Positions 51,686 to 61,411 of a DNA stretch of 64,000 bases are shown piece by piece. Origin of the DNA: Amycolatopsis viridis. Lineage in GTDB: Bacteria; Actinomycetota; Actinomycetes; Mycobacteriales; Pseudonocardiaceae. How positions within the stretch are numbered: the first letter of the stretch is position 1; every line of letters starts with the position of its first letter. The DNA lies in the NCBI RefSeq assembly GCF_011758765.1, contig NZ_JAANOU010000001.1:5270001-5334000 (forward strand), given 5' to 3'. The translations under genes and the position numbers were made by a program. The notes under the pieces were generated by a model. It searched no databases. It was not told the DNA's origin and saw nothing but the letters and a program-made list of their open reading frames with translations.

Positions 51686-51724
51686 AGTCTACCACTTGCG
51701 TTACGTTCCGGAACGGAACATAAT
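51686..51724. promoter_or_regulatory. Overlapping divergent promoters and operator for tetR/MFS
   Basis: Plus strand: TTGCGT (51696-51701), 17 bases, CATAAT (51719-51724), seven bases, GTG of the MFS gene. Minus strand: TAGACT (51691-51686), seven bases, GTG of tetR. Between them TTACGTTCC (51701-51709) and GGAACATAA (51715-51723) form an imperfect inverted repeat (7 of 9), containing the palindrome GTTCCGGAAC. Confidence 0.7.
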
Positions 51725-51731
51725 TGTCCCC

Positions 51732-53072
51732 GTGTCCATCACCTCGACATCAGAAGGCGTGTTCTCGCCCCGCTACCGCGCCCGCACGGCCGGCATCGTG
51801 CTCACCGTGGGACTCGTCGCGCTCGAATCCCTCGGCGTGGCGACCATCCTGCCGGACATCGCGCGCGGGCTCGGTGGCCTCGGCTCCTACGGCTGGGGCC
51901 TGGCTGCGTTGATGCTGGCGAACATCGTCGGCACCGTGCTGGCCGGGCACGCCGCCGACCGCGGCGGTCCGGCCCGGCCGCTGGCACTGGGCCTGGTGTC
52001 GTTCGCCGCCGGCAGCGTGGTGGCCGGGCTCGCCCCGACGTGGCCGCTGTTCCTGGTCGGCCGGTTCGTGCAGGGGCTCGGCGTGGGCGCGGTGATGGCG
52101 ATGGCCTACACGCTGATCGGCCTGGTCTACCCCGAACGGCTGCGCGCCCGGATGTTCGCGCTGTTGTCCTCGGCGTGGACCATTCCGTCCCTGGTCGGCC
52201 CGGTGGTCGCCGCGACGGTCGCGAGCACGATCGGCTGGCGGTGGGTTTTCCTGTTCATGATCCCGCTGGCCGCGCTGGCCGCCTGGGGCATGCTGCCCGG
52301 TCTCGAGCGGCGGGAGCCCGGCCCCGCGGTCACGTCCCGGTGGCGACCGCTGATCGGCAGCATCGCGCTCACCGCCGGCACCGGCCTGCTCCTGGCCGCG
52401 CTGGAGCTGCGCACTATCGCCCTGCTGGCGCCGCTCGCCGTGGCCGGGCTGGCGGTCGCCGTGGTCGCGCTGCGGCAGGTCACCCCGGCCGGGACCCTCG
52501 CCGTGCGACGGGGCGTACCCGCCGGGGTGGTCGTCCGGTTCCTGCTGTGCGCGGTGTACTTCGGCACCGAGGCGTTCCTCCCACTGGGGCTGACCCAGCT
52601 CCGGCACCTCGACGCGTTCGAGGCGGGACTGGGCCTCTCGGCGGGTGCGCTCACCTGGGTGGCCGGGTCCGCGCTGCAGGCCAAGTGGGATCGCCACCGG
52701 CGGGTCACCGTGGCGCTGGGGTTCGCGGTTCTGGTCGCCGGCGTCGCGGTGCTGGCGTTCGGTGTGCTCGTGGGCCCGGGACTGCTCGCTGTGCTCGGGT
52801 GGGCGATCGGCGGGGTGGGCATGGGGGCTGCGTTCAACGCCGCCACCACCGAGACGCTCGGCCGCACGCCGGAGGAGCAGCAGGGGTCGGTCAGCGCGTC
52901 GCTCCAGCTGGCCCAGACACTCGCGACGGCCGTCGCGAGTGGACTCGGCGGTGCGCTGATCGCCCACCAGGGCCCGGTGCCCGGCGCGTTCCTGGTGGTC
53001 TTCCTCGGCACCGCGATCCTCGGGCTCGCCGGGGTCGTCGTGGCCCGGCGACTCAGCGGAGCGGACGTGTGA
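51732..53072 (+). CDS. MFS drug-type efflux transporter
   Basis: 446 residues from GTG 51732; the in-frame TTG at 51696 is part of the promoter. About 12-14 membrane helices. Motif A is in the loop after helix 2 (GHAADRGGPARPL) and a motif C-like GxxxGPVVAA is in helix 5, typical of proton-driven drug efflux. It is predicted to be controlled by the divergent TetR protein. The substrate cannot be inferred. Confidence 0.88.
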   Translation: MSITSTSEGVFSPRYRARTAGIVLTVGLVALESLGVATILPDIARGLGGLGSYGWGLAALMLANIVGTVLAGHAADRGGPARPLALGLVSFAAGSVVAGLAPTWPLFLVGRFVQGLGVGAVMAMAYTLIGLVYPERLRARMFALLSSAWTIPSLVGPVVAATVASTIGWRWVFLFMIPLAALAAWGMLPGLERREPGPAVTSRWRPLIGSIALTAGTGLLLAALELRTIALLAPLAVAGLAVAVVALRQVTPAGTLAVRRGVPAGVVVRFLLCAVYFGTEAFLPLGLTQLRHLDAFEAGLGLSAGALTWVAGSALQAKWDRHRRVTVALGFAVLVAGVAVLAFGVLVGPGLLAVLGWAIGGVGMGAAFNAATTETLGRTPEEQQGSVSASLQLAQTLATAVASGLGGALIAHQGPVPGAFLVVFLGTAILGLAGVVVARRLSGADV

Positions 53073-53095: not shown

Positions 53096-53124
53096 TTGCC
53101 GCGAAGATCCCTCCTGGGTTAGCA
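53096..53124 (+). promoter_or_regulatory. Candidate promoter of the glycosyltransferase operon
   Basis: TTGCCG (53096-53101), 17 bases, TTAGCA (53119-53124). The -10 lies inside the left arm of the CIRCE element, the usual arrangement for HrcA-repressed promoters. Confidence 0.5.
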
Positions 53125-53145
53125 CTCTTAGCAGGAGAGTGCTAA
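53119..53145 (+). promoter_or_regulatory. CIRCE operator (HrcA binding site)
   Basis: A perfect TTAGCACTC-N9-GAGTGCTAA, arms 53119-53127 and 53137-53145, exactly the consensus. It lies 34 bases before the start codon of a glycosyltransferase gene; no chaperone gene is nearby. Confidence 0.95.
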
Positions 53146-53179
53146 CTGAAGAGAGGCCTTGACGGTCCGAGGAGGCAGC

Positions 53180-54397
53180 TTGAGCAGCGCGCATCGTCCT
53201 GCGTGGAAAGCCCGATCTGTTTCGCACCCCGCCGTGCACCGGGACAGCCATGACCGCCCGCTCCGGGTGGCGATGATCGTCCCGCCCTACTTCGACGTTC
53301 CGCCGAAGGCGTACGGCGGAGTCGAAGCCGTGGTCGCCGATCTCGCCGACGCCCTCGTCGACCGCGGGCACCGGGTCACCCTCATCGGCGCGGGCCGTCC
53401 CGGCACGAAGGCCGGGTTCGTCCCGGTGTGGGAGCGCACCGTTCCCGAACTGCTCGGCCAGCCGTACCCGGAAGTCATGCACGCGATCGCCGCGCGCCGG
53501 GCCGTGCAACGCCTCGCCACGAGCGAGGGGGTCGACGTGGTGCACGACCACTCCCTGGCCGGACCGCTCAACGCACCCGCCTACGGGGTGCCGACGGTGG
53601 TCACCGTGCACGGGCCGGTGGGCGAGGACATGGCGCGCTACTACTCGGAACTGGGCGACGACGTGCACCTGGTGGCGATCAGCGACCGGCAGCGGGAGCT
53701 CGCGCCGGAGCTCAACTGGATCGGCACCGTCCACAACGCACTGCGACTGGCGGACTGGCCCTACGAGTCCGAAAAGGACGACTACGCCCTGTTCCTCGGC
53801 CGCTTCCACCCGGACAAGGCGCCGCACCTCGCGCTCGAGGCCGCGCACCGCGCCGGGCTGCGGCTGGTGCTGGCCGGCAAGTGCGCCGAGCCGATCGAAA
53901 AGGAGTACTTCGAGCGGGAGGTCCGGCCGCGCCTGACGGACAACGACCACGTGTTCGGCGTCGCCGACGCGACCGCGAAACGGGACCTGCTCGCCAAGGC
54001 CCGCTGCCTGCTCTTCCCGATCCAGTGGGAGGAACCGTTCGGCATGGTCATGATCGAGGCGATGGCGTGCGGCACCCCGGTTGTCGCGCTGCGGTCCGGT
54101 GCGGTGCCGGAGGTCGTCGTGGACGGCGTCACCGGCCTGGTACGCGACGATCCGGCCGACCTGGTGCAGGCTCTGCACGACGTCCGCCACCTCGACCCGG
54201 CCAAGTGCCGCGCGCACGTCGCGGAGCACTTCGACGTCGCCGGGCTCGGAGCCGGCTACGAGACGGCGTACCGGCGGGCCGTCGAGGTCAGCAGCCTCCG
54301 CCGCGACTACGCCGCGCTGGACTCGGCGCTCGACCGCGCCTACGACCAGATGGACAACGGCGGCCCGGCGTTGCAGCCGTCCGGAGGGCGATCATGA
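53180..54397 (+). CDS. Family 4 glycosyltransferase downstream of a CIRCE element
   Basis: 405 residues from TTG 53180, chosen for the AGGAGG five bases upstream; TTG 53159 is possible. GT-B fold. The N-terminal acceptor domain has PPYFDVPPKAYGGVE and the C-terminal nucleotide-sugar domain has LFLGRFHPDKAPHLA and the E-x7-E motif (EPFGMVMIE). It probably transfers a hexose from a nucleotide sugar, perhaps to make a glucan, lipid or compatible-solute glycoside. It overlaps the debranching-enzyme-like gene by four bases, so they form an operon under heat-shock-type control. Confidence 0.9.
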   Translation: MSSAHRPAWKARSVSHPAVHRDSHDRPLRVAMIVPPYFDVPPKAYGGVEAVVADLADALVDRGHRVTLIGAGRPGTKAGFVPVWERTVPELLGQPYPEVMHAIAARRAVQRLATSEGVDVVHDHSLAGPLNAPAYGVPTVVTVHGPVGEDMARYYSELGDDVHLVAISDRQRELAPELNWIGTVHNALRLADWPYESEKDDYALFLGRFHPDKAPHLALEAAHRAGLRLVLAGKCAEPIEKEYFEREVRPRLTDNDHVFGVADATAKRDLLAKARCLLFPIQWEEPFGMVMIEAMACGTPVVALRSGAVPEVVVDGVTGLVRDDPADLVQALHDVRHLDPAKCRAHVAEHFDVAGLGAGYETAYRRAVEVSSLRRDYAALDSALDRAYDQMDNGGPALQPSGGRS

Positions 54398-56514
54398 CCC
54401 CGGAAGCGTTCAACGCGGGCGAGCCGGTGCCGGTGACCAGCGCGGGCGGCACGGTCACCCTCGTCGAGGGCAGCACGTTCTGCCTGTCCGGGCCGGGCGG
54501 CGACATCCAGCCGGGCACCTCGCACGGCCTGTTCTTCCGGGACGCGCGGCTGATCTCGCGGTGGGAGCTGCGGCTGGACGGGCAGCCGCCGCATCCGCTG
54601 TCGGTCATCTCGGCGGAGGCGTTCGCGGCGCAGTTCGTGCTGCGCCGCAACCCGAAACCGGGGCAAGCGGACAGCACGCTGCTGCTGGTGCGCGAACGCC
54701 TCGTCGGCGACGGTCTCCGGGAAACGATCACCCTGCGGAACCTGGGCCGGGAGAACACCGTCGCGAACCTGACGCTGCACGTCGACGCGGACTTCTCGGA
54801 CCTGTTCGCGGTCAAGGAGGGCCGGCCCGCGCACGGCGGGGCGGACGCCACGGTCGCTGGTTCGGAACTGCTGCTGCGGGACCGGTCCGACGGCTCCCGC
54901 GGCCTGTCGGTCAGTGCCACCGCCGATCCGCTGGCCGCGCCCGGCGTGCTGAACTGGCGCGTCGTCGTGCCCGCGCGCGGCGAGTGGTCGACCGAGATCG
55001 TGGTCCAGCCCACCGTCGGGAACCGGCGGGTGCGTCCGCAGTTCGACCGCGGCGAGGAGGTCGAGGCGAGCGGCCCGGCACGCAAGATCCGGGCGTGGCG
55101 GGACGTGAGCACGATGATCGCGGCCGACGACCCGGTGCTCACCCAGGTGCTGCAGCGCACCGAGAGCGACCTCGGCGCGCTGCAGATCCACGACACCAGC
55201 CAGGACGGCCGTCCGTTCGTCGCCGCCGGCGCCCCCTGGTTCATGACCCTGTTCGGCCGGGACAGCCTGCTCACCGCGTGGATGGCGCTGCCGCTGGACG
55301 TCGGCCTCGCGCTCGGCACCCTGGAGACCCTCGCCGAGTTGCAGGGCAAGCGGGTCGACCCGCTGACCGAGGAGGAGCCCGGCCGGATCCTGCACGAGCT
55401 GCGGCTCGGCCCGGACAGCGACCAGGTGCTCGGCGGCAGCCACTACTACGGCACGGTCGACGCCTCGCCGCTGTTCGTCATGCTGCTGGCCGAATGCTGG
55501 CGCTGGGGCGCGGGCGAGACCGCGGTGCGCGCTCTGCTCCCGGCCGCGGACGCGGCGCTGGACTGGCTGGAGCGCTACGGCGACCGCGACGGCGACGGGT
55601 TCGTCGAGTACCGGCGCGCAACCGACCGCGGCCTGCTCAACCAGGGGTGGAAGGACAGCTTCGACGGGATCAACGACGCGGCCGGGCGGCTGGCCACCAC
55701 GCCGATCGCGCTGTGCGAGGTCCAGGGGTACGCCTACGCGGCCTGGCTGGCGCGCGCCGAACTGGCCGACGCGTTCAACGACCCGGCCACCGCCGCCCGC
55801 TGCCGGGAACGGGCCGAGCGGTTGCGCGAGCGGTTCGCGGAGAAGTTCTGGCTGCCCGAGCAGGGCTGGTACGCCGTGGCACTGGACGGGCGCAAGCAGC
55901 CGCTGGACGCGTTGACCAGCAACACCACGCACTGCCTGTGGTCGGGCATCGCCACCGACGAGCACGCCGCCGTGCTGATCGAGCGGCTCAGCCGGCCGGA
56001 GATGGACAGCGGGTTCGGGTTGCGCACGCTGTCCACGGCGATGGGCGCCTACAACCCGATGAGCTACCACAACGGCTCGGTGTGGCCGCACGACACGGCC
56101 ATCGCCGTGGCCGGCTTGCTGCGCTATGCGCACCTACCGGGCGCGGTGGAGCTGGCGCAACGCCTCGCGACGGGACTGCTGGACGCGGCGGCCGCGTTCG
56201 GCGGGCGGCTGCCCGAGCTGTTCTGCGGTTTCGCCCGGTCGGAGTTCAGTCCCCCGATCCCCTATCCGACGTCGTGTTCGCCGCAGGCGTGGGCGAGTGC
56301 GGCGCCGCTGCTGCTCGTACGGTCGTTCCTGGGGCTCGAACCGCACGTCCCGCAGCGGCGGTTGACGGTTCGCCCGCACCTGCCCGAGCGGTGGGGCCGG
56401 CTGCGCCTGTCGGATCTGCGGCTGGGCGAGCTGACCGTGCACGTCGAGGCGGACCACGACGTGGCGAAGGTGCGGGGGCTGCCGGAAGGGTGGGACCTGC
56501 GGATGACCGGGTGA
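54394..56514 (+). CDS. Glycogen debranching-type glucosidase (amylo-alpha-1,6-glucosidase family)
   Basis: 706 residues from ATG 54394 (GGAGGG upstream), overlapping the GT stop. A beta-sandwich N-terminal domain of the GDE_N_bis type (about 1-240: FCLSGPGGDIQPGTSHGLFF) is followed by an (alpha/alpha)6 barrel (about 255-640: WFMTLFGRDSLLTAW, QGWKDSFDGIND, NPMSYHNGSVWPHDTA). This is the glucosidase half of debranching enzymes; the transferase half is absent, so in this gene class it may act on short branched or capped glucans. No signal peptide is seen, so it is cytosolic. It partners the GT4 enzyme. Confidence 0.88.
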   Translation: MTPEAFNAGEPVPVTSAGGTVTLVEGSTFCLSGPGGDIQPGTSHGLFFRDARLISRWELRLDGQPPHPLSVISAEAFAAQFVLRRNPKPGQADSTLLLVRERLVGDGLRETITLRNLGRENTVANLTLHVDADFSDLFAVKEGRPAHGGADATVAGSELLLRDRSDGSRGLSVSATADPLAAPGVLNWRVVVPARGEWSTEIVVQPTVGNRRVRPQFDRGEEVEASGPARKIRAWRDVSTMIAADDPVLTQVLQRTESDLGALQIHDTSQDGRPFVAAGAPWFMTLFGRDSLLTAWMALPLDVGLALGTLETLAELQGKRVDPLTEEEPGRILHELRLGPDSDQVLGGSHYYGTVDASPLFVMLLAECWRWGAGETAVRALLPAADAALDWLERYGDRDGDGFVEYRRATDRGLLNQGWKDSFDGINDAAGRLATTPIALCEVQGYAYAAWLARAELADAFNDPATAARCRERAERLRERFAEKFWLPEQGWYAVALDGRKQPLDALTSNTTHCLWSGIATDEHAAVLIERLSRPEMDSGFGLRTLSTAMGAYNPMSYHNGSVWPHDTAIAVAGLLRYAHLPGAVELAQRLATGLLDAAAAFGGRLPELFCGFARSEFSPPIPYPTSCSPQAWASAAPLLLVRSFLGLEPHVPQRRLTVRPHLPERWGRLRLSDLRLGELTVHVEADHDVAKVRGLPEGWDLRMTG

Positions 56515-56676
56515 TCCGCATCCCCATGGGCTCGCCGCCGCCATCACGAGCGGGAACTGCCTGGTCGTCGACATGGAGACGATCTCGGCGCTGCGGGCTC
56601 CGAGAGCACCGGACATCCCGTAGGTGCTGGCGACGCTGGAGCGGGGCCTGGCCAAGCTCGGACCGCGATCGGGAAA
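56515..56676 (+). other. Short possible gene remnant after the GT/debranching operon
   Basis: In one plus frame the DNA reads GNCLVVDMETISALRAPRAP and, after an in-frame TAG, VLATLERGLAKLGPRSG. It looks like eroded coding sequence, but I cannot name a family. Confidence 0.3.
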
Positions 56677-56704
56677 AGCCTTCCCCGTTCCGGCGGGGAG
56701 GGCT
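56677..56704 (+). terminator. Terminator of the GT/debranching operon
   Basis: An 11-bp stem with one G-U pair (AGCCTTCCCCG/CGGGGAGGGCT, arms 56677-56687 and 56694-56704) followed by CTTTA. It lies 163 bases after the stop of the debranching gene. Confidence 0.75.
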
Positions 56705-57297: not shown

Positions 57298-57372
57298 TCA
57301 CAGCCGCGCGCTGATGTCCTCCTCGGACAGCGCGTCCACCTCCGGGTCGATCTCCGCCACCTGCTCCAGTCG
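57298..57372 (-). pseudogene. Protein C-terminal remnant abutting the 21-base array
   Basis: On the minus strand the frame ends RLEQVAEIDPEVDALSEEDI then SARL-stop, a hydrophilic, helix-like, coding-looking C-terminus. Directly upstream its frame runs into the repeat array, where only 21-base-period peptides (PGVVFAV) are found. No proper start or 5' gene body exists, so an unknown gene may have been replaced or broken by the array. Confidence 0.4.
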
Positions 57373-57379
57373 CCCGGCA

Positions 57380-57662
57380 CGGCAACACGACGCCCGGCAC
57401 GGCAACACGACGCCCGGAGCGGCAAACACGGCGGCCGGGACGGCAAACACGACGCCCGGGACGGCAAACACGACGCCCGGCACGGCAACACGACGCCCGG
57501 AGCGGCAAACACGGCGGCCGGGACGGCAAACACGACGCCCGGGACGGCAAACACGACGCCCGGGACGGCAAACACGGCGGCCGGAGCGGCAGACACGGTG
57601 CCCGAAACGGCAAACACGGCGGCCGGAACGGCAGACACGGCGGCCGGAGCGGCGAACACGGC
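57380..57662 (-). repeat. Direct 21-base repeat array B, 14 units
   Basis: Fourteen head-to-tail units of CGGCAAACACG(A/G)CGCCCGGGA type: unit starts are 57380, 57400, 57420, 57441, 57462, 57483, 57503, 57524, 57545, 57566, 57587, 57608, 57629 and 57650 (the last partial). Lengths are 21 bases except three 20-base units that lack one A. The array fills the gap between the convergent ends of the GNAT and ligD-polymerase genes. It is the same unit as array A, here all in one orientation. Confidence 0.92.
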
Positions 57663-57672
57663 GCGCTGTGGG

Positions 57673-58668
57673 CTAGTCCTTCTTCGCGCGGCTGGGGGCG
57701 ACGCGGGGCGGCTCGTTCGGCTGTTTCGGGTAGACGGGTGGCCAGGGCGCGTCCATCAGGCCCGCCGCCATGTCCCGTTCGGACATCTCCAGCAGCGGCT
57801 CGATGGACTGCGGCCGCGTGTACATCGCGGCCCACGGGTCGCCGCGCCGGGACACCAGCTCCGGTACCGTCGTCAGGGTCAGTTCCGCCGGCTCCACAGT
57901 GGACAGCTCGTCCCAGCCGATGGGTGTCGACACCTGCCCACCCGGCCGCGGCCGCACGCACCACGCGCCGAACACCGTCTTGTGCGGTGCGTTCTGGTTG
58001 AAGTCCACGAAGACCCGCGCCCCGCGTTCCTCCTTCCACCACTGCGCGGTGATCAGCTCCGGGTGCCGCCGCTCCAGCTCCCGCGCGAGCGCGACGGCGG
58101 CGGCACGTACCTGGTACGAGTCCCACCGGGGCTCCAGCGCCACGTACACGTGCAGCCCACGCGAGCCGGTCGTTTTGAGGAACGACGCGATGCCCAGCGA
58201 GTCGAGCAGGTCCCTGGCCAGCACCGCCGCCTCCCGGACCTGCGCGAAGCTCACCCCCGGCGACGGGTCGAGGTCGATCCGCAACTCGTCGGTGTACGAG
58301 GGCTCCGACGCGCGGTAGGGCCACACGTGGAACCCGATGCACCCGAGGTTCACCGCCCACAGAATGTGTGCCAGGTCGGCCGCCACCAGCGCGTCGGAGG
58401 TCGTGCCGTTCGGCGTCGACACGACCGTCGTCCGCACCCAGGACGGCGTGGACTTCGGCACCCGCTTCTGGAACCACGACTTGCCGCTCGCACCGTCCGG
58501 GTACCGCTCCAGCAGCAGCGGCCGGTCCCGCAGTGTGTTCATCAGCGGGCCCTCGACCGCCTGGTAGTACCGCACCAGGTCGAGTTTGGTTTCGCCGCGT
58601 TCGGCGAAGTACACCTTGTCCGGCGACGAGATGCTGACCTCGGTGCCCTCGATGGGAACGGCGCTCAC
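57673..58668 (-). CDS. ligD: LigD-type DNA polymerase/primase (PrimPol) domain protein
   Basis: 331 residues from GTG 58668, which overlaps the ligase stop (GTGA). It matches the polymerase domain of bacterial NHEJ LigD as a separate protein: catalytic Asp pair in LRIDLDPSPG, TGSRGLHVYVAL and FVDFNQNAPHKT motifs. It adds nucleotides and fills gaps at double-strand breaks. Its 3' end is 11 bases from repeat array B. No phosphoesterase domain and no ku gene are present in the window. Confidence 0.92.
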   Translation of the reverse strand: MSAVPIEGTEVSISSPDKVYFAERGETKLDLVRYYQAVEGPLMNTLRDRPLLLERYPDGASGKSWFQKRVPKSTPSWVRTTVVSTPNGTTSDALVAADLAHILWAVNLGCIGFHVWPYRASEPSYTDELRIDLDPSPGVSFAQVREAAVLARDLLDSLGIASFLKTTGSRGLHVYVALEPRWDSYQVRAAAVALARELERRHPELITAQWWKEERGARVFVDFNQNAPHKTVFGAWCVRPRPGGQVSTPIGWDELSTVEPAELTLTTVPELVSRRGDPWAAMYTRPQSIEPLLEMSERDMAAGLMDAPWPPVYPKQPNEPPRVAPSRAKKD

Positions 58669-59738
58669 GCTTTCACCTCGCTGAACAGGGCGGTCAACTC
58701 CGCCGGTGGCACCTCTTCCAGCTGGTCGTACCGGCACGACCCGGGTGTCCGGTCGGGCCGGAACCGCACCAGCCGGGTGGCGTGCCGGAACCGGGCGGCC
58801 TGCAGGTGGTCGTAGCGGACCTCGGCGACCAGCTCGATCCGCACCGGCTCCCAGGACAGGTCCTTACCGGCGTTCCACCGGCTCTGCGCGCCCGGCATCC
58901 GGCGCCCGTCGGGGACGAACGACGCCCATTCGCGCCACGGGTGCTGCTCCATCGCACCCTCGCGCAGCGGTGCCAGCTCGCCGGCCAGTTCACGGCGCCG
59001 GGCGGCGGTGAAGCTGCTGGCGACGCCCACGTGGTGCAGCCGGCCGCCGTCGTCGTAGAGGCCGAGCAGCAGCGACCCGACTCCGTTGCCGTCCTTGTGC
59101 CACCGGAACCCGGCGACCACGCAGTCGGCGGTGCGCTCGTGCTTGACCTTCCACATCACCCGCTTGTCCTGCTCGTACGGCAGGTCGCCGGGTTTGGCCA
59201 TCACCCCGTCGAAACCGGCTCCCTCGAAGCGGGTGAACCAGTCCTGCGCCACGTCCGGGTCCAGCGTCATCGGGGTCAGGTGCACCCGGGCGAGGGTGTC
59301 GTCGAGAACTCCGTCGAGGACGTGCCGGCGGTCGCGGAACGGCTCGCCGGTGAGGTCGTCGTGGTCGAGGGCGAGGATGTCGAAGGCGACGAAGCTGGCG
59401 GGTGTCTCCCCCGCGAGCTTGCGCACCCGGGACGCGGCCGGGTGCAGGCGCAGCTGGAGGCTGTCGAAGTCGAGGCCGTCGCGGGTGACGATGACGATCT
59501 CGCCGTCGACCACGCAGCGCGGCGGCAAGGCCGCCTTGAGCAGATCGACCAGCTCGGGGAAGTACCTGGTCAGGGGCCGATCGTTGCGCGAGCCCAGCTC
59601 GACCTCATCCCCGTCGCGGAACACCACGCAGCGGAACCCGTCCCACTTCGGCTCGTAGTGCAGGCCGGGTTCGCGGGGCATCTCGTGCACGGCCTTCGCC
59701 AGCATCGGCTTGACGGGCGGCATCACGGGCAGGTCCAC
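58665..59738 (-). CDS. ATP-dependent DNA ligase (LigD ligase part)
   Basis: 357 residues from GTG 59738, seven bases after a TAGAGT box (probably leaderless); ATG 59723 is an alternative. The adenylation-site lysine is in motif I YEPKWDGFR (KxDG). Motif III (FVAFDILALD), IV (FDGVMAKP) and V (WKVKHE) are present, followed by an OB-fold domain with RPDRTPGSCRYDQLEE. It seals double-strand breaks in NHEJ together with the overlapping polymerase gene. Stand-alone forms like this are common in actinomycetes. Confidence 0.92.
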   Translation of the reverse strand: MDLPVMPPVKPMLAKAVHEMPREPGLHYEPKWDGFRCVVFRDGDEVELGSRNDRPLTRYFPELVDLLKAALPPRCVVDGEIVIVTRDGLDFDSLQLRLHPAASRVRKLAGETPASFVAFDILALDHDDLTGEPFRDRRHVLDGVLDDTLARVHLTPMTLDPDVAQDWFTRFEGAGFDGVMAKPGDLPYEQDKRVMWKVKHERTADCVVAGFRWHKDGNGVGSLLLGLYDDGGRLHHVGVASSFTAARRRELAGELAPLREGAMEQHPWREWASFVPDGRRMPGAQSRWNAGKDLSWEPVRIELVAEVRYDHLQAARFRHATRLVRFRPDRTPGSCRYDQLEEVPPAELTALFSEVKA

Positions 59739-59843: not shown

Positions 59844-60194
59844 ATGAAGTACATGGCGATTCTCTACGGCAACCAGGAGTTGTGGGACTCGATCACGCCC
59901 GCGCAGTGGCAGGAGGCCATCGCCGCGCAGGACGAGTTCAACCGGAAGTACTTCGCGACCGGCGAGTTGCTCGGCGCCTACGGGCTCGGGGACGCGCCGA
60001 AGGTGGTCCGGGTGCGTGATGGGCAGCCGGCCGTGACCGATGGGCCGTACCTGGAGACCAAGGAGTACCTGGGCAGCGTGGCGATGCTGGAGGTGGACAG
60101 CGAGGAGCGGGCGCTGGAGATCGCGGCGGACAACCCGTTCGCCGCGTTCCGGCAGGTGGAGGTGTGGCCGGTGCTGCACGGTGGCGAAAAGTGA
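59844..60194 (+). CDS. YCII-related (DGPF) domain protein
   Basis: 116 residues from ATG 59844, with AGGAAGG ten bases upstream. The sequence MKYMAILYGNQELWDSITPA and the signature TDGPYLETKEYLGSVAMLE define the YciI/DGPF family, small dimeric ferredoxin-like proteins. Its stop overlaps the start of the sigma factor gene by four bases. DGPF genes adjoining ECF sigma factors of the ECF42 type are a recognised pairing; the protein's role in control of the sigma factor is unproven. Confidence 0.9.
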   Translation: MKYMAILYGNQELWDSITPAQWQEAIAAQDEFNRKYFATGELLGAYGLGDAPKVVRVRDGQPAVTDGPYLETKEYLGSVAMLEVDSEERALEIAADNPFAAFRQVEVWPVLHGGEK

Positions 60195-61411
60195 TCGAGG
60201 ACCTGCTGCGCGAGCTGGCGCCGCAGGTCCTCGCCATCCTCATGCGCCGCTACGGCGGGCTCGACACGTGTGAGGACGCGGTGCAGGAGGCGCTGCTCGC
60301 GGCCGCGACGCAGTGGGCCGGGAGCGGGGTGCCGGACAACCCGCGCGGCTGGCTGCTGACGGTCGCGACGCGGCGCCTCACCGACTGGATGCGCAGCGAC
60401 AGCGCCCGGCGCCGCCGGGAGGACGAGGACCTGATGGCCACGCCGGCGGCGCTGCTCGTTGCACCGGGCGCGGACGAGCGCGGCCCCGGTGATGTGGACG
60501 ACACGCTGACGCTGCTGTTCCTGTGCTGTCATCCGGCGCTGTCGGCGCCGTCGCAGATCGCGTTGACGCTGCGGGCTGTCGGCGGCCTGACGACGGCGGA
60601 GATCGCGAAGGCGTTCTTCGTGCCGGAGGCGACGATGGCGCAGCGGATCAGCCGGGCCAAGCAGAAGGTGAAGGGCGCCCGGTTCGCACCGCCACCTCCG
60701 GAGGAGCGGGACGAGCGGCTGGCCGCGGTCCTGCACGTGCTGTACCTGATGTTCAACGAGGGGTACACGGCCACGGCCGGGCCGGAGTTGCAGCGCGAGG
60801 ACCTGGCGGCCGAGGCGATCCGGCTGACGCGCCTGGTGCGGCGGCTGTTGCCGTCGGACTGGGAGGTCGCGGGCCTGCTGGCGCTGATGCTGCTGACCCA
60901 CGCGCGGCGCGCGGCCCGCACCGCCGCCGGCGAGCTCGTCCCGTTGTCCGAACAGGACCGCCGGTTGTGGGACCGGGCACTGATCGAGGAGGGGGTCGCG
61001 CTGGTGAGCGAGGCGCTGGCGCGGACCCGCCGGCTCGGCGCCTACCAGCTGCAGGCAGCGATCGCCGCGGTGCACGACGAGGCGGCGAGCGACGAGGAGA
61101 CGGACTGGCCGCAGGTGCTGGCGCTGTACACGGTGCTGGAGCGGGTGGCACCGAACCCGATGGTGACGCTGAACAAGGCGGTGGCGGTGGCGATGACGTC
61201 CGGACCGCTGGCCGGGCTGGAGCTGGTGGACGCGCTCGCGGCGGACGACCGGCTGGCCAGGCACCACCGGTTGCACGCGGTGCGCGCGCACCTGCTCGAC
61301 CGCGCCGGGCAGCTCGCGGCGGCACGGGAGGAGTACCTGCTGGCCGCGAAGTACACGACGAGCCTCCCGGAGCAGCGGTACCTCCACCGACGGGCGAGAC
61401 GAACCGTCTAA
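60191..61411 (+). CDS. ECF42-type RNA polymerase sigma factor with long C-terminal extension
   Basis: 406 residues from GTG 60191, overlapping the DGPF gene. Sigma-2 region (about 5-75: LRELAPQVLAILMRRYGGLDTCEDAVQEALL) and sigma-4 helix-turn-helix (about 105-160: ALTLRAVGGLTTAEIAKAFFVPEATMAQR) are followed by a 200-residue all-helical extension with TPR-like repeats (LHVLYLMFNEGYTAT, NPMVTLNKAVAVAM). This extension takes the place of an anti-sigma factor in ECF42 proteins. Its target promoters cannot be told from this window. Confidence 0.92.
   Translation: MIEDLLRELAPQVLAILMRRYGGLDTCEDAVQEALLAAATQWAGSGVPDNPRGWLLTVATRRLTDWMRSDSARRRREDEDLMATPAALLVAPGADERGPGDVDDTLTLLFLCCHPALSAPSQIALTLRAVGGLTTAEIAKAFFVPEATMAQRISRAKQKVKGARFAPPPPEERDERLAAVLHVLYLMFNEGYTATAGPELQREDLAAEAIRLTRLVRRLLPSDWEVAGLLALMLLTHARRAARTAAGELVPLSEQDRRLWDRALIEEGVALVSEALARTRRLGAYQLQAAIAAVHDEAASDEETDWPQVLALYTVLERVAPNPMVTLNKAVAVAMTSGPLAGLELVDALAADDRLARHHRLHAVRAHLLDRAGQLAAAREEYLLAAKYTTSLPEQRYLHRRARRTV

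Follow-up and report, generated by a model that had tools for sequence, protein, structure and literature searches.

A perfect CIRCE operator ahead of a glycosyltransferase-glucosidase gene pair in Amycolatopsis viridis

A 64-kb stretch of Amycolatopsis viridis DNA (contig NZ_JAANOU010000001.1; the whole stretch is called the window below) carries a perfect copy of the controlling inverted repeat of chaperone expression (CIRCE), the operator of the repressor HrcA, upstream of two genes for carbohydrate enzymes, a family 4 glycosyltransferase (GT4) and a glucosidase of the "glycogen debranching" type. Sequence comparison makes it very likely that HrcA controls this pair, which we regard as a bicistronic operon within the HrcA/CIRCE regulon. 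In other bacteria HrcA is known to lose its activity when unfolded protein occupies GroEL. We propose that at normal temperature HrcA would sit on CIRCE, over the putative -10 region and transcription start, and block RNA polymerase; when unfolded protein titrates GroEL, HrcA would become inactive and the operon would be derepressed together with groES-groEL, groEL2 and a Ruc-like gene. With UDP-glucose as donor, the GT4 enzyme would then glucosylate a small acceptor, possibly through an alpha-1,2 linkage, to give a stress-protective oligosaccharide or glucoside, which the co-translated alpha-glucosidase may trim or recycle. We put the probability of this account as a whole, an HrcA-repressed and heat-derepressed UDP-glucose transferase whose partner glucosidase helps to make or recycle a possibly protective glucoside, at about 0.7.

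A sugar-enzyme operon under CIRCE that is conserved in some ten genera would link protein-folding stress directly with the metabolism of small molecules, and a two-gene unit with no other recurring neighbour, present in named cultivated actinomycetes, would offer a way into the discovery of a new stress metabolite. A more specific idea, that several actinobacterial families use HrcA to make a dedicated alpha-1,2-glucosylated protective sugar, so far undescribed, and that the second gene encodes the matching alpha-glucosidase and not a glycogen debrancher, is put forward tentatively and at odds clearly below even; under it, a chemical-chaperone arm would share the GroEL-titration sensor that serves the protein chaperones. 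The first-pass annotation of the window had described the CIRCE site and its gene pair and had read them as a heat-inducible pathway; the observation is confirmed and the interpretation as a whole is partly supported. No report of a CIRCE-controlled glycosyltransferase was found among titles and abstract openings in open-access PMC, the subscription literature lying outside that scope.

The operator, its inferred promoter and the gene pair

The element, TTAGCACTC-N9-GAGTGCTAA, occupies positions 53119-53145 and matches the CIRCE consensus at 18 of 18 arm positions with 0 mismatches, exactly as first annotated. It is the sole match at three or fewer mismatches within the window, and 100 shuffles gave no match at that threshold. 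The whole genome (5,684,261 bases in one contig) contains five CIRCE sites at three or fewer mismatches, and a reversed control pattern gave no match in the same scan. With no mismatch, the site at the glycosyltransferase operon is closer to the consensus than the groE sites of the same genome (one mismatch at groES-groEL, two at each of two groEL2 sites); the fifth site, with one mismatch, precedes a gene for a Zn-ribbon protein (Pfam Zn_ribbon_8 on a 37-residue piece), which we take to be of the Rv0991c/Ruc kind. The genome has a single HrcA gene (PF01628, E 1.2e-60). The arrangement resembles the known HrcA/CIRCE regulon of Actinomycetota (groES-groEL, groEL2, Ruc type) in an operator identical letter for letter, in the presence of an HrcA gene and, probably, in the position of the operator at a putative promoter; it differs in its target, where a carbohydrate enzyme pair takes the place of chaperones or the Zn-ribbon stress protein.

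The significance of this difference was assessed with a control set in which one CIRCE site per genome was read in 30 relatives (L001-L030), chosen by search output and belonging for the most part to different families within the order (94 of 100 genomes had a site). Twenty-five of the 30 sites lie at groES, groEL or a ruc-like gene and the remaining five at Hsp20 genes, four of them recognized by Pfam and one (L021) by reading its sequence beside that of L023. All other 34 CIRCE sites read, these 30 and four in the A. viridis genome, have a chaperone, Hsp20 or Ruc-like target. In this set CIRCE is thus a mark of proteostasis genes, to which the glycosyltransferase operon forms the exception. 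The Hsp20 sites are an observation in their own right: in L012, L021, L023, L024 and L025, from other families of the order, CIRCE (1501-1527, at most two mismatches) stands upstream of the gene, which suggests HrcA control of small heat-shock proteins in those families.

The features of the operon, in window positions, are as follows.

53096..53101, plus strand: putative -35 element TTGCCG, 17 nt ahead of CIRCE, with a TTG spacing kept across the family sites
53119..53145, no strand assigned: CIRCE operator matching the consensus at all 18 arm positions; its left arm overlaps the inferred -10
53170..53175, plus strand: Shine-Dalgarno sequence AGGAGG
53180..54397, plus strand: GT4 glycosyltransferase, 405 aa, TTG start (Pfam PF00534/PF13439; closest solved protein 7fg9)
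54394..56514, plus strand: "glycogen debranching"-type glucosidase, 706 aa (PF14742, PF22422, PF06202; 7vma, also by fold search)
56677..56704, plus strand: terminator-like hairpin followed by CTTTACT, weak evidence alone (one found, against an expectation of 0.9 when the region is shuffled)

The longest open frame of the glycosyltransferase begins at TTG 53159 (412 aa). The most likely start is TTG 53180, behind AGGAGG, and it is preferred to 53159 because genus-wide conservation begins at 53180. The start of the debranching-type gene is ATG 54394, not position 53428 of its long open frame; the gene overlaps the stop of the glycosyltransferase gene by 4 nt, which suggests coupled translation. 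Both the GT4 assignment of the first gene and its overlap with a debranching-type gene agree with the first-pass annotation.

That annotation had also placed CIRCE over the -10 of a promoter with 17-nt spacing. TTGCCG and the 17-nt spacer are indeed present; the putative -10, TTAGCA, is a poor match to TATAAT. Support for the promoter comes from the TTG spacing, which is fixed across Pseudonocardiaceae orthologues: TTG begins 22 or 23 nt 5' of CIRCE in all 23 family-set sites with at most two mismatches. A second design appears in Mycobacterium and Nocardia, where ATAA stands directly 5' of CIRCE in 14 of 15 sites and, with the first T of CIRCE, forms NATAAT, a good -10. Either arrangement would place the -10 region and the transcription start of the predicted promoter beneath the operator.

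Conservation of the operator among homologues

Within the genus, an orthologue with at least 84% identity occurs in 10 of 19 genomes, and CIRCE is present with 18 of 18 arm letters in all ten; the same-genus loci L038 and L042-L045 share both the site and the upstream DNA with named records of A. tucumanensis, A. deserti, A. thermalba, A. sacchari and A. bartoniae. Identity across the genus is 100% in the arms, 81.5% in the spacer, 68% in the 30 nt upstream and 67% in the 12 nt downstream. This pattern bears on the suggestion that the inverted repeat serves less as a repressor site than as a stem-loop in the 5' leader, with mRNA stabilization as its main role. Such roles have been discussed for the CIRCE elements of Bacillus subtilis and Rhodobacter capsulatus (cited in PMC3207917). 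A stem in RNA could accommodate compensatory changes, yet the arm letters are fixed in every genus orthologue, and with a -10 in the left arm some of the element would go untranscribed; we consider an RNA role of this kind improbable.

In the family, a glycosyltransferase homologue at E ≤1e-60 was found in 67 of 390 genomes (76 matches), of which 31 were read for CIRCE, the other 45 being weaker (37-56% identity). CIRCE with at most two mismatches precedes 23 of the 25 orthologues with at least 70% identity, and is perfect in 16 of the 25. Conservation upstream of orthologous operons was one of the checks that the first-pass annotation had set for its own reading; the outcome does not refute that reading and lends good support to a sugar operon under CIRCE/HrcA control. 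The two exceptions are L081, which has no site (best match six mismatches), and L069, in which CIRCE (1396-1422) is one base shorter. The shortened L069 element looks like a natural near-loss of the operator. Among the six family homologues at 50-59% identity none has CIRCE; in four of them (L046, L082, L084 and L085) the glucosidase gene comes first and the operon start lies beyond the DNA compared. Pairwise identity across 24 of the 25 loci (L081 left out) is 94% in the arms, 52% in the spacer, 44% in the 30 nt upstream and 38% in the 12 nt downstream.

The distribution extends beyond the Pseudonocardiaceae, the family that the first-pass annotation had named. Thirty of the best 80 of 204 loci from named relatives carry CIRCE with at most two mismatches, and L134 has one with four; the genera with a site among these 80 are Amycolatopsis, Saccharothrix, Prauserella, Lentzea, Kibdelosporangium, Micromonospora, Allorhizocola, Mycobacterium/Mycolicibacterium, Nocardia and Kineococcus. 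Eleven of the 80 duplicate family loci, and merging gave 100 deduplicated homologues, 42 of them with CIRCE. On their tree the presence of CIRCE changes nine times, against a mean of 32.5 when labels are shuffled (0 of 500 shuffles as low), a clustering that near-copies inflate and from which gain cannot be told from loss. Because of this inflation, the conservation of arms against flanks is the better argument. In a phylum-wide sample, a glycosyltransferase match at E ≤1e-90 occurs in 107 of 396 genomes, and two of the 30 loci read (that of A. viridis itself and L171) have CIRCE with at most two mismatches.

It could be argued that CIRCE is a functionless chance or hitchhiking element here, and its absence from more than half of the deduplicated homologues, some of them close, fits that idea. 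Yet none is expected by chance, and the element persists across some ten genera whose flanking sequences have diverged; we regard this explanation as hardly credible. A chance origin of the site was ruled out by the shuffles, the reversed control pattern and the arm-versus-flank conservation.

The glucosidase gene lies downstream of the glycosyltransferase gene on the same strand in 40 of the 42 homologues with CIRCE, against 31 of the 58 without. Four Streptomyces loci (L158, L159, L163 and L165) have a homologous glucosidase gene upstream of the glycosyltransferase gene, and no CIRCE at four or fewer mismatches is found in the 11 kb compared there. Beyond the pair, no neighbour recurs at 35% identity and E 1e-15 in at least six of 37 loci; the three open reading frames listed in this comparison come from L119, whose glycosyltransferase falls outside the masked range.

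The two enzymes and their possible product

The closest match of the glycosyltransferase in the PDB is TeGSS, a UDP-glucose:sucrose alpha-1,2-glucosyltransferase from Thermosynechococcus (tll1591; 7fg9, 7fga and 8x3q), with E 1.1e-60 to 7fg9 and 38% identity across 333 aligned residues; TeGSS is also the best match by fold (AlphaFold model, mean predicted local distance difference test score (pLDDT) 86.8). According to PMC9909042, TeGSS converts UDP-glucose and sucrose into glucosylsucroses with alpha-1,2 linkages, and work cited there has glucosylsucroses, the product family of TeGSS, rising in cyanobacteria when salt or heat stress is applied. The TeGSS residues that serve in catalysis and UDP binding, Y18, R179, K184 and E256, are kept as Y52, R215, K220 and E292 (numbering of the 412-aa frame), and these four together with W254 are conserved in the A. 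viridis enzyme and invariant across 31 homologues. UDP-glucose is the likely donor, judging from this donor site.

The partner contains the Pfam domains GDE_N_bis (PF14742, 156.8 bits), MGH1-like (PF22422) and GDE_C (PF06202, 36.5 bits) and matches 7vma, the amylo-alpha-1,6-glucosidase of Thermococcus gammatolerans, over nearly its whole length (E 1.2e-83). The same entry is its top fold match (model mean pLDDT 82.0) at just 30% identity. Next in the fold search are the GH63 enzyme YgjK, one entry of which holds an alpha-1,2-linked glucoside, and GH94 phosphorylases, with kojibiose phosphorylase lower; because of these matches an alpha-1,2-glucosidase role is possible and is offered as a lead. 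Given the modest identity and the GH63 and GH94 matches, the partner may cut one of several linkages, and "glycogen debranching" is an annotation only. The coupling to glucan metabolism envisaged in the first-pass annotation is founded on the likeness to a characterized amylo-alpha-1,6-glucosidase. Its suggestion of a polysaccharide or compatible-solute pathway is half supported by the stress-related glucosylsucroses of the nearest solved relative, with the reservation that the acceptor is probably not sucrose.

Several observations weigh against the account proposed here. On the side of regulation, a sigma-70 consensus scan of the window finds no promoter, for which reason the promoter is only inferred; the TTG spacing is not seen at the groE or ruc CIRCE sites of the same genome, nor at the glycosyltransferase-operon sites of Mycobacterium, Nocardia, Allorhizocola and Kineococcus; and 58 of the 100 homologues are without CIRCE, 17 of them 66-79% identical and mostly from Nocardia and Micromonosporaceae. 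On the side of the product, the nearest solved relative of the partner is a genuine alpha-1,6 debrancher and not a known alpha-1,2-glucosidase. Six of the 11 named residues on the acceptor rim of TeGSS (Y70, E74, Y97, R117, T119 and N122) are replaced by M, A, A, P, G and M, W10 is replaced by Y, E265 does not map to a Glu, and Y18, K184 and W254 are kept, in a comparison that lies in an alignment stretch with gaps nearby. Lastly, sucrose-phosphate synthase is absent above the TIGR02472 cut-off (576 bits) from 12 of 12 genomes, the best score being 110.6 and that of the A. viridis genome 94.1.

Since the six rim residues are changed, the acceptor may differ much from that of TeGSS, and sucrose synthesized by the cell itself is an improbable candidate. 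One alternative is the synthesis of glucosylsucrose as in cyanobacteria, with the sucrose being imported. Such a product is favoured by the kinship with TeGSS, the closest solved relative, whose products increase when cells meet heat or salt stress (PMC9909042); against it stand the altered rim and the lack of the synthase, and the sucrose-phosphatase family, whose low cut-off is passed in 15 of 16 genomes, is represented by short matches of at most 35.8 bits (25.6 bits in A. viridis, positions 147-222 of 247). We give this version little credence. The A. viridis system departs from TeGSS in having most acceptor-rim residues changed, a glucosidase neighbour instead of a sucrose-phosphate synthase, and CIRCE control.

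Ordinary glycogen or maltodextrin remodelling under HrcA is the alternative that takes the annotation of the partner at face value: the GT4 enzyme would act on alpha-glucan, and a true amylo-alpha-1,6-glucosidase would mobilize glucose in heat stress. It draws on the similarity of the partner to 7vma, for which alpha-1,6 hydrolysis is reported (PMC9142091), on the title of the TeGSS entry 8x3q, which mentions a four-sugar alpha-glucan, and on the best NCBIfam model of the glycosyltransferase, glgA_Coryne (E 1.3e-20), though at 73.9 bits this is far below the cut-off of 302.4. It is opposed by the E values of the glycosyltransferase, which put it much nearer to TeGSS (E 1e-60) than to GlgM, a maltose-1-phosphate synthase (6tvp, 1.4e-11), and by the neighbour comparison, which at the thresholds given above yields no additional recurring gene, whether from glycogen metabolism or of another kind. 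We judge it unlikely, while taking it seriously, and favour a UDP-glucose transferase acting on a small acceptor, with the partner trimming or recycling its product.

Neighbouring genes and sequences

Upstream of the operon lies a major facilitator superfamily gene (51696-53072) that runs in the same direction and stops before CIRCE, which rules out a divergent gene as the explanation of the site. Anti-phage defence was considered and rejected, as PADLOC gave no match. The gene after the operon encodes a GNAT acetyltransferase. Positions 56520-56665, just after the operon, read like a small open reading frame with an in-frame stop. A tandem array at 57371-57664 (a 21-base unit in 14.1 copies, or 83 bases in 3.5 copies) sits between the GNAT gene and a gene for a LigD-type primase-polymerase on the minus strand (57676-58737), and 60164-61411 contains a sigma-70 type gene with a DUF6596 domain.

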